Assembly: GCA_021771025.1 (NCBI GenBank)
Contig: JAETPW010000004.1
Location: forward strand, 24,309-88,308
Source: Clostridiaceae bacterium
Lineage (GTDB): Bacteria; Bacillota; Clostridia; TANB77; CAG-508
Length of the DNA: 64,000 bases
Direction of reading: 5' to 3'
Shown: in pieces, positions 5,383 through 15,214 of the stretch
Position numbering within the stretch: position 1 is the first letter of the stretch
How the letters are laid out: every line of letters starts with the position of its first letter
Notes under the pieces: model-generated
Database searches by the model: none
Told to the model about the DNA's origin: nothing
What the model saw: only the letters and a program-made list of their open reading frames with translations
Translations under genes and position numbers: made by a program

Positions 5383-5459
5383 AAGTAAACATTTAAAATT
5401 TACCAATAAAAAGAAGGAGGGAATATGATAGCCTAAAAAGCTAACATATGCTAAAAACT
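5383..5459 (+). promoter_or_regulatory. Structured trxB leader with hairpin between SD and AUG
   Basis: Two stems are visible. The first is GTAAA...TTTAC around 5385-5403. The second is a 27-nt hairpin at 5423-5449 (ATATG-A-TAGC, loop, GCTA-A-CATAT) that starts directly after the Shine-Dalgarno AAGGAGGG (5414-5421) and ends ten bases before the trxB ATG. The same layout recurs at 13399-13477 with a compensatory pair change. It also contains a 3-codon frame (ATG ATA GCC TAA). Function is inferred as translational control. Confidence 0.6.
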
Positions 5460-6362
5460 ATGGACTATGATATCATCATTATTGGAGCAGGACCAGCGGG
5501 AATCTGTGCAGCTATCTATGCCTTAAGAGCAAATCAAAAAACACTAATCATCGAAAAGGAAACAATTGGAGGGAAAATTGCGTCTTCCCCATTAATCGAA
5601 AACTATCCCGGAATTAAAGCGATTAAAGGACCAGAACTTTCCGAACAACTAGAAGACCAAATCAAACAATTAGGAGGAAAAATAGAATTTGGCGAAGTAA
5701 TAAACATACAAAATAAAAGAGAAGAAAAAATAGTCATCACCAAAAACAAAACCCATAAAGCCAAAGTAATTATTCTTGCCTTAGGAACAAAATACAAAAA
5801 ATTAGGTTTACCAGAAGAAGAAAAATTTTTAGGAAAAGGGATATCCTTTTGTGCCACATGTGATGGATTTTTTTATCGCCAGAAAACAGTAGCCGTGATT
5901 GGAGGAGGAAACTCTGCCATGGCAAATGCTTTAGAACTAGCTAACATTTGCCAGAAAGTGTATGTCATTCAAAACCTTGACCACTTAACAGCAGAACCCA
6001 TGTTAATTGATCAAATCAAACCAAAAGAAAATATCGAAATCATCACACAAGCTTCAGTAAAACAAATACAGGGAGAAGAAAAAGTAACAGGCATAGTCAT
6101 TGAAGAAAAAGGAAAAGAAAAAACATTAACCCTAGATGGAATGTTCCTTTCTATCGGACAAATTCCCGAAACAGAAATAATTTCCCCTCTAATAAAACTA
6201 GATGAAAACGGGTATATTGTAACCAATGAACAGCAAATGACAAATAGCGAAGGAATCTTCGCAGCGGGAGATTGCGTAAAAAAGAATATTAGGCAATTAA
6301 CAACAGCAGTTAGCGATGGAACAATAGCTGCTTTATCGGCAATAGAATATAATACAAAATAA
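5460..6362 (+). CDS. trxB: Thioredoxin-disulfide reductase
   Basis: FAD- and NADPH-dependent enzyme that reduces thioredoxin in the cytoplasm. The N-terminal FAD motif is IIGAGPAGICA, the redox-active pair is C131-ATC-C134, the NAD(P)H motif is VIGGGNSAM just after it, and the C-terminal FAD segment is GIFAAGDC. The length, about 300 residues, is normal. An in-frame ATG lies four codons upstream (5448), but it falls inside the leader hairpin; the ATG at 5460 gives the usual MDYDIIIIGAG start. No thioredoxin gene is adjacent. It ends at a strong terminator, so it appears monocistronic. Confidence 0.95.
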   Translation: MDYDIIIIGAGPAGICAAIYALRANQKTLIIEKETIGGKIASSPLIENYPGIKAIKGPELSEQLEDQIKQLGGKIEFGEVINIQNKREEKIVITKNKTHKAKVIILALGTKYKKLGLPEEEKFLGKGISFCATCDGFFYRQKTVAVIGGGNSAMANALELANICQKVYVIQNLDHLTAEPMLIDQIKPKENIEIITQASVKQIQGEEKVTGIVIEEKGKEKTLTLDGMFLSIGQIPETEIISPLIKLDENGYIVTNEQQMTNSEGIFAAGDCVKKNIRQLTTAVSDGTIAALSAIEYNTK

Positions 6363-13370: not shown

Positions 13371-13398
13371 GTTGAAAATAATTTTCATCACCCAGTCC

Positions 13399-13477
13399 AA
13401 GTAAACTTAAAACATTTACGAATACGACGAAAGGGGGAGATAGGTTAGAGATGAAAGCTAACCTATGCTAGAAAAAA
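13399..13477 (+). promoter_or_regulatory. Structured ABC-exporter leader, homologous to trxB leader
   Basis: AAGTAAAC (13399-13406) and a GTAAA...TTTAC stem are followed by the Shine-Dalgarno AAGGGGGAG (13431-13439). A perfect 9-bp hairpin then spans 13440-13466 (ATAGGTTAG / CTAACCTAT), and the ATG follows after eleven bases. The hairpin length (27 nt) and the spacing match the trxB leader at 5383-5459. A six-codon frame (ATG AAA GCT AAC CTA TGC TAG) lies inside. Confidence 0.6.
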
Positions 13478-15214
13478 ATGAAACAAGTAATGCGATCTAT
13501 TTTAAAACAATATATAGGGCTAATGATCATTTTGGTCATTTTTATTTTCATCAATATGTATATCTTAACACTACCAGCAAAAATCATTGGAATCATCATC
13601 GATTACATGGCAGATATGGAAGCCAATAAAACGGCAATAACCACATACCTGCTTTATTTGGTAGGTGCGGTTATCTTATACTTACTGACGAGAATACCAT
13701 GGAGAACACTCAGCACCTATATATCAAGAACCTTTGAACGAGACCTAAAAAATATCATTTTCAACCAATTCATTCGACTAAAATTAGAAGACATTCAAAA
13801 TATCAAAAACGGAGAATTAATGTCCTACTTCACTAAAGATATTATGGAAATCAGAGCGTGCCTATACCGTATCATGAGTTATGGAATAAGAATCATAGCA
13901 ATAGGAACAGTAGGAATCTATACCATGGTCTTAGGAGTTAACACAAAGCTAACCATAGTAGCCTTAATCCCTATCCTAATCACGGCATTTGCCATTATCA
14001 AAATCAAAAAATACGTAGAACAAAACTTCAGAAAAGCAAGACAATATTTCACAGAACTATCAGAATTTGTACAAGAAAGTACAGATAGTATCAGAACCAC
14101 AAAAGCCTATTCAGGAGAAATGAGCCAAGTCAAACAATTTATCCAAAAAAATCGAAAACTAAAACAAAGCAATATTGCTGTAGATACCAATTCAACGCTT
14201 TTATCCACAAGTATCAACATAGGCTTTGGTTTGTGTTATGGAATAACGATATTGTTCGGGTCACACTTAGTCTTGCAAAACAATATCACCTTAGGAGACT
14301 TTATCGCCTTTAATGGCTACATAGGTTTATTCTATGGACCAGTATCATGGCTACCGGGAATCATCTCACGATACAAAAGAGCGCAAATTTCATACCATCG
14401 TTTAGACAAACTATTTAACTTAGAACGAGAAAAAATCAACCTAAAAAACATAGAAAAACAAGAAGAAATAAAAGGAGACATCATCATCAAAGACCTAAAC
14501 TACAACTATCCAACAACCATAGAAGTAGCCCTAAGTCACATCAACCTAACCATTCCAGAAGGAAGAACCCTAGGAATCATCGGAACAATCGGCAGCGGAA
14601 AAACAACCCTCATGAACTTACTCCTAAAACTATACCCAGTAGAACGCGGAAAAATCACCATTGACGGAAAAGACATCAATGACCTTCCAATCGAAAGTTT
14701 AAGAAACAACATCTGCTACATCACCCAAGACAACTTCCTATTCTCCACCACATTACGAGAAAACATCAGCCTATTCAAAGAAGGCTATGACGAAGAAGAC
14801 ATCATCAAAAGTACAAAGCAAGCCAAAATGAAAGAAGAAATAGACGAAATGGAAAACGGAATCGACACCATCATAGGAGAAAGAGGAGTCGACCTATCAG
14901 GAGGGCAAAAACAAAGAGTAGTCATCTCAAGAGCATTCCTCCAAGCAAGTAACATCGTCATCTTCGACGACACCTTCTCAGCATTAGACAACAAAACAGA
15001 AGAGCAAGTCCTAAAAAACGTAAGAAACCTAACCAAAGGCAAAACCTGTATCATCATCTCCAACCGAATATCCGACGTAAAAGATGCAGACGAAATCATC
15101 GTGTTAGAAGAAGGAAAAATCATCCAAAAAGGAGATCATCAAAACCTAATAAACCAAGAAGGGTTATACCAAAAATTCTACCTACAACAATCTACCGAAT
15201 TGGGGACGGGGTAA
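13478..15214 (+). CDS. ABC exporter half with degenerate NBD (YheI/BmrC-like)
   Basis: Full half-transporter of 578 residues: membrane domain about 15-310, ATPase domain about 335-570. Walker A is GTIGSGKTT (about 369-377), the signature DLSGGQKQR, Walker B IVIFDDTFSALD with Asp instead of the catalytic Glu, and the H-loop SNRISDV with Asn instead of His. It therefore needs a partner with an intact ATP site, and the gene that should supply it, directly downstream, is truncated. The last residues (ELGTG) and the stop are encoded by an inserted GGGGACGGGGTAA repeat, so the native C-terminus has been replaced. Expression is probably controlled by the structured leader. Confidence 0.92.
   Translation: MKQVMRSILKQYIGLMIILVIFIFINMYILTLPAKIIGIIIDYMADMEANKTAITTYLLYLVGAVILYLLTRIPWRTLSTYISRTFERDLKNIIFNQFIRLKLEDIQNIKNGELMSYFTKDIMEIRACLYRIMSYGIRIIAIGTVGIYTMVLGVNTKLTIVALIPILITAFAIIKIKKYVEQNFRKARQYFTELSEFVQESTDSIRTTKAYSGEMSQVKQFIQKNRKLKQSNIAVDTNSTLLSTSINIGFGLCYGITILFGSHLVLQNNITLGDFIAFNGYIGLFYGPVSWLPGIISRYKRAQISYHRLDKLFNLEREKINLKNIEKQEEIKGDIIIKDLNYNYPTTIEVALSHINLTIPEGRTLGIIGTIGSGKTTLMNLLLKLYPVERGKITIDGKDINDLPIESLRNNICYITQDNFLFSTTLRENISLFKEGYDEEDIIKSTKQAKMKEEIDEMENGIDTIIGERGVDLSGGQKQRVVISRAFLQASNIVIFDDTFSALDNKTEEQVLKNVRNLTKGKTCIIISNRISDVKDADEIIVLEEGKIIQKGDHQNLINQEGLYQKFYLQQSTELGTG

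Follow-up and report, generated by a model that had tools for sequence, protein, structure and literature searches.

How is translation initiated when a 27-nt hairpin separates the Shine-Dalgarno (SD) sequence from the start codon, and does the same arrangement in front of two unrelated genes reflect a function? This question is raised by the trxB locus in the window, the 64,000-nucleotide stretch of the Clostridiaceae genome that was analysed. An earlier note on this DNA claimed that the leaders at 5383-5459 (copy 1) and 13399-13477 (copy 2) contain the same parts in the same order, and direct reading confirmed this. The features of the two leaders and of the genes that follow them are listed below.

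5385..5403, + strand: upstream hairpin H1 of copy 1, GTAAACATTTAAAATTTAC, with the arms GTAAA.../...TTTAC, read directly
5414..5421, + strand: SD sequence of trxB in copy 1, AAGGAGGG, 38 nt upstream of the ATG
5423..5449, + strand: hairpin H2 between SD and AUG in copy 1, ATATGATAGC-CTAAAAA-GCTAACATAT, 27 nt
5450..5459, + strand: spacer from hairpin to ATG in copy 1, 10 nt (family median, 10)
5460..6362, + strand: trxB, thioredoxin-disulfide reductase, ATG at 5460 (TIGR01292, 346 bits; cut-off, 343)
13373..13387, + strand: third hairpin H0 in copy 2, TGAAAATAATTTTCA, the start of a full type I leader
13401..13419, + strand: H1 of copy 2, GTAAACTTAAAACATTTAC, from direct reading and pair counts
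13430..13438, + strand: SD sequence of the ABC exporter gene in copy 2, AAAGGGGGA
13440..13466, + strand: H2 of copy 2, ATAGGTTAGA-GATGAAA-GCTAACCTAT, 27 nt
13467..13477, + strand: spacer from hairpin to ATG in copy 2, 11 nt
13478..15214, + strand: ABC exporter (permease/ATP-binding protein) gene, ATG at 13478

In copy 1, H2 consists of a 10-bp stem, including one A-A mismatch, and a 7-nt loop; H0 is absent from this copy. In both copies, a strong SD is separated from H2 by 1 to 2 nt. Comparison of the two stems revealed ATAGG/CCTAT in copy 2 where copy 1 has ATATG/CATAT, which is a compensatory change. It includes the exchange at stem position 4 that had been claimed as compensatory (T5426-A5446 in copy 1 versus G13443-C13463 in copy 2), and the A5428/A5444 mismatch of copy 1 is indeed a T13445-A13461 pair in copy 2. 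A second in-frame ATG of trxB at position 5448, within the last bases of the hairpin, showed no conservation across the hairpin family. The gene behind copy 2 encodes an ABC exporter of the MsbA/SmdA-like kind that scores under the equivalog cut-offs. The trxB gene of the window had no match at an E value of ≤1e-60 among 38 congeners, and a second TrxB-like gene is present in the same genome (L041); the window gene may have been acquired, yet it bears the local leader.

Searching the 2.04-Mb genome with the first leader by BLAST returned 36 matches, the best non-self match having an E value of 1e-13. A covariance model of the SD-H2-ATG segment (R1), built from 33 BLAST-matched copies, identified 94 distinct SD-hairpin-AUG sites in this genome; copies 1 and 2 scored 63 bits (E value, 6e-12) and 57.5 bits (E value, 1e-10), respectively. 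With this many matches and sites, the likeness of the two window copies is far beyond chance, and the pair on which the earlier note was based belongs to a genome-wide and family-wide module. At 88 of the 94 sites, an open reading frame follows immediately in fixed register and orientation, and the remaining 6 have no usable open reading frame within reach. Two of these 6, one before adk (L137) and L032, look like decayed leaders, and the genes below them now start from another site. The copies are unevenly spread over the genome, as among approximately 60 genes in the window just two have the hairpin, and elsewhere two or three consecutive genes form hairpin-bearing clusters (e.g., C6:53615-55733). 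Based on a gene total estimated from the genome size, the 88 sites correspond to roughly 5% of the genes. The hairpin-bearing genes include fabD, rsmG, pyrB, pyrI, grpE, truA, rnc, engB, spoIIIAC, rlmN, mutY, pyrF, rsmD, hslO, hpt, and nagZ as well as the genes for V-ATPase subunit B and transketolase. The approximately 90 genes are a functionally mixed housekeeping set with no common theme and do not form a regulon.

Pair statistics were obtained from a structure-fitted alignment (A3) of 98 distinct sequences with 960 cells. The H2 positions pair in 93.5% of these cells, and changes on both sides of a pair were found at 8 of the 10 pairs. Double changes occupied 51 cells, compared to 11.6 (standard deviation, 2.9) after shuffling, and none of 500 shuffles equaled the observed number. 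Pairing fell to at most 57% once the partners were slid by 1 to 3 columns. A plain MAFFT alignment (A1) that was not fitted to the structure agreed on the H2 pairing. One pair is A-U in 52, G-U in 38, and G-C in 4 of 97 sequences, and such frequent G-U wobble suits an RNA rather than a DNA operator. Since the copies are related by descent, the compensated cells are not independent events. These data strongly support the interpretation of H2 as a conserved, selected RNA structure. The further homologues with covariation on which the earlier note had made its proposal depend were thus found by covariance-model search.

The stem sequence ATGTTAG/CTAACAT has been kept beyond the needs of a mere spacer, and a de novo structural scan for unrelated hairpins between SD and AUG found none above the control level. 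For these two reasons, H2 appears to be shaped by descent or by a sequence-specific role or partner, not by a demand for any hairpin. Columns 19/36 of alignment A1 hold a recurrent mismatch, mostly C-A, in 5 of 33 copies, and the CTAAC of the 3' arm is nearly invariant. This combination suggests that the 3' arm may have a role tied to its sequence.

The geometry of the start sites was determined for 169 copies, 88 from the own genome and 81 from relatives. The SD match has a median length of 7 nt and lies at a median linear distance of 37 nt from the AUG; the narrow spread of this distance is partly built in, because the covariance model itself limits length. Subtraction of the hairpin leaves a median of 12 nt (10 to 90% range, 10 to 15), in support of the claim that folding would bring the distal SD and the AUG close together. 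The best proximal SD-like match near the AUG has a median length of 3 nt and a maximum of 5 nt. In ordinary window genes, the SD mostly lies 5 to 10 nt from the ATG; measured against the ordinary range of this genome, the effective spacing of the leaders, about 12 nt, falls at its long end or slightly outside it. The leaders thus combine a distal SD, a conserved hairpin, a folded spacing within the functional range, and the lack of a proximal SD, as expected for a split ribosome-binding site (RBS). We therefore favor, with a probability of roughly 0.64, the reading that H2 serves as the structural spacer of a hairpin-bridged ("split") RBS that is reused as a general leader module. The 30S subunit would pair with the strong SD about 37 nt upstream of the AUG. 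When H2 is folded, the path from SD to AUG would shorten to about 12 nt, and the AUG could be placed in the P site; when H2 is open, the SD would be out of range. We infer that the ribosome uses the distal SD across the folded hairpin and that opening of the hairpin lowers translation. Against this reading count the stem sequence, conserved more than a spacer would require, the rather long effective spacing, and the AUG that about 80% of copies retain in the 5' arm immediately after the SD.

Analysis of the sequence upstream of the SD revealed that H2 often stands behind further structures. A similarity cut-off assigned 37 copies of the own genome to a type I leader with the order H0-H1-SD-H2; about a dozen have a type II leader (fewer when assigned strictly), and 39 have neither type. 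H1 is paired in 86.7% of the cells in 50 type I leaders and in 92.0% in 42 leaders from relatives. These counts indicate that the upstream hairpin H1 is real. Other leaders, among them L037, L109, L116, and L232, keep a hairpin at the H0 position with different but self-complementary arms. In 11 type I copies, the upstream stop codon lies 54 to 79 nt before the SD region, and the type I leader therefore fills the intercistronic gap. Full type I leaders occur in approximately 20 genomes of at least six genera. One locus (L147:259-478) carries a tandem pair of type I leaders with a spacing of 116 nt, and in the first of them AAG has replaced the ATG; this is a duplicated leader cassette before one gene. 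The type II leader is a second dispersed element with the arrangement AAAGGTTTATAGGTAAAACCTT-N-AAAAACCTAAAT just 5' of the SD, present at 16 sites of the own genome (L234-L249) and in relatives (L231 and L181). Its stem P1 varies with compensation (AAGG/CCTT, TGGG/CCCA, and AAGGG/CCCTT) and its conserved loop is complementary to an A-rich tail; the predicted fold looks like an H-type pseudoknot. Three type II leaders (L239, L240, and L244) lack H2 and precede a plain SD start. Under the split-RBS reading, the module would exist either as H2 alone or as H2 behind one of these two structured leader kinds, and copying or recruitment would have placed it before about 90 unrelated genes of the own genome and before a smaller number in many of its relatives.

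The distribution in relatives was monitored with a second covariance model (R2) using the best 24 to 30 scored sites per genome. At least one copy was present in 72 of 195 congeners. In a sample of 41 genera from the order, 15 had copies; except for one weak match, all positive genera belong to the same taxonomic family. When the best 150 sites were scored, the 20 richest or best-known relatives had 6 to 26 copies at an E value of ≤0.01, compared to 83 in the own genome, and many other relatives have none. Among congeners, the copy number varies from 0 to about 90, and the analysis establishes this patchy distribution along with the position, geometry, covariation, and family size of the element. 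The rnc (RNase III) gene was located in relatives by tblastn. Its leader lacks the hairpin in 25 of the 27 genomes in which it was readable, and in most of these 25 an ordinary SD precedes the start codon at short range. The SD-hairpin-ATG arrangement was found in two genomes of different genera, the own genome and G275. The simplest reading is that the element was gained as a block, SD included, ahead of the AUG. Only 7 of the 81 copies of relatives precede orthologs of hairpin-bearing genes of the own genome, compared to about 3 estimated by chance, and most gains thus look lineage specific. Phage records contained no match to the leader element. In IMG/VR, the single exact 18-mer match fell within a coding gene and failed to fit the model, and phage carriage of the leader was rejected on these grounds.

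A broader picture, which we regard as less likely than not, is that of a general-purpose, copyable initiation module, H0-H1-SD-H2, whose SD would function only when the hairpin beyond it is folded. In part of the family, pairing between the H1 and H2 loops across the SD would determine whether this geometry forms, and the module would often fill operon gaps, with each cistron starting alone. If this is true, the three-hairpin module would represent a new class of cis-acting translation element. Apart from this picture, an initiation layout that had seemed exceptional appears in this genome as a widely used component. The natural compensatory variants make the tolerance of the 30S subunit for structure in the SD-AUG spacer directly testable, and the hairpin leaders provide a ready, natural set of RBS parts. 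For start codon annotation, SD-based gene finders would prefer a hairpin-internal AUG or overlook the RBS.

Of the other explanations, a conditional switch is compatible with the split RBS and goes beyond it. Here, H2 (with H1) would take up alternative states and thereby turn the gene on or off; the trigger could be temperature, ligand binding, a protein, or pairing between the H1 and H2 loops across the SD. The SD is flanked by H1 and H2, and the moderate stem stability (median, -8.9 kcal/mol) would suit such a role. In relatives, complementarity between the H1 and H2 loops follows the individual copy (P = 1e-4 on permuting partners within genomes; n = 43), as in the three matched loop pairs TTTTTAA/TTAAAAA, TTTTAAA/TTTAAAA, and TTTCAAA/TTTGAAA of G307, although gene conversion between inverted repeats could be an alternative source of this match. 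The own genome, however, showed no H1-H2 loop covariation (P = 0.75), and contiguous pairs numbered only 4 and 6 in the two copies of the window. Many copies have H2 without H1, a long H1:H2 duplex would carry two nearly always mismatched positions, and the hairpin-bearing genes have no common theme. Of the plausible translation switch proposed in the earlier note, the conserved RNA hairpin with its many compensatory changes held up; the switch itself did not gain from a set of about 90 mixed housekeeping genes that form no regulon, and we consider it doubtful.

Another explanation assigns the SD to an AUG within the 5' arm of H2: a peptide of about nine codons (consensus, MLALKANIC) would be translated, termination would occur beside the main AUG, and ribosomes would reinitiate there. 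An ATG lies a few nucleotides after the SD in 135 of 169 copies (approximately 80%), and in 81 of these 135 a stop codon lies near the main ATG. In contrast, 34 of the 169 copies have no ATG at this position (ATAGG/CCTAT and others), with GTG in 12, TTG in 6, and neither in 16, and double changes preserve the stem while losing the ATG. In 36 of the ATG copies the frame ends early, in window copy 1 after 3 codons, and in 18 it extends beyond the main ATG. The same distribution of stops (81/35/19) was obtained in the +2 frame, which shows that there is no frame-specific conservation of the upstream frame. An upstream open reading frame was rejected for want of a conserved start codon and reading frame, and we regard a leader peptide as improbable.

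A dispersed selfish or mobile repeat of the REP, BIME, or BOX kind that happens to lie at gene starts would account for the patchy copy numbers among congeners, the tandem duplication of the whole leader at L147, and the decayed leaders L137 and L032. Against this, the SD/ATG orientation and register are fixed at 88 of 94 sites, which is not REP-like, the stems are compensated, the same genes carry the element in other genomes in 7 of 81 cases, and the phage records gave no match. This explanation is unlikely, although an element could be mobile and functional simultaneously. A DNA operator, with a repressor binding to the inverted repeat, would fit the 10-bp dyad with its conserved half-sites, but it was rejected as scarcely credible, since G-U pairs would be G/T mismatches in DNA at one pair in 38 of 97 sequences, the compensatory changes are specific, and the site is invariably placed between SD and ATG, even between operon genes.

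The hairpin-bridged RBS was compared with known systems. Searching Rfam 15 with the window revealed only two tRNAs at the gathering score, and searching with the leaders, type II included, returned only unrelated low-score matches at an E value of <1 and no family. A literature search with coverage of few subscription journals found no report of such a hairpin-leader family in bacteria. Guanidine-II and preQ1-I are small translational riboswitches in which small hairpins or a pseudoknot adjoin the SD. The arrangement of H1 and H2 presumably recalls guanidine-II and the type II leader the preQ1-I layout, resemblances which we take as leads only; unlike these riboswitches, the leaders have no Rfam match, and their genes form no regulon. 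Like REP, BIME, and BOX elements, the leaders contain short imperfect palindromes that are patchily distributed and reach a high copy number within a genome, but their register and orientation between SD and ATG are fixed, and the stem is RNA-like (G-U pairs) and compensated.

To our knowledge, the SD-hairpin-AUG layout is otherwise known only from two genes of phage T4. As in these genes, 25 and 38, the leaders have a distal SD and an intervening hairpin whose structure is conserved in relatives. In T4 genes 25 and 38, the hairpin reduces the SD-AUG distance from 27 to 11 nt and from 22 to 5 nt, respectively, and its destabilization lowers initiation (PMC3014915). Mutation and DMS probing demonstrated the function of the T4 split RBS (Nivinskas 1999; Malys & Nivinskas 2009; reviewed in PMC3014915), whereas that of the leaders described here is predicted from sequence. 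The folded spacing, 11 and 5 nt in T4 and about 12 nt here, is within the functional range in both systems. In contrast to the single phage genes, the bacterial hairpin precedes about 90 genes in one genome, often stands behind one or two further structures, and has related sequences across a bacterial family.
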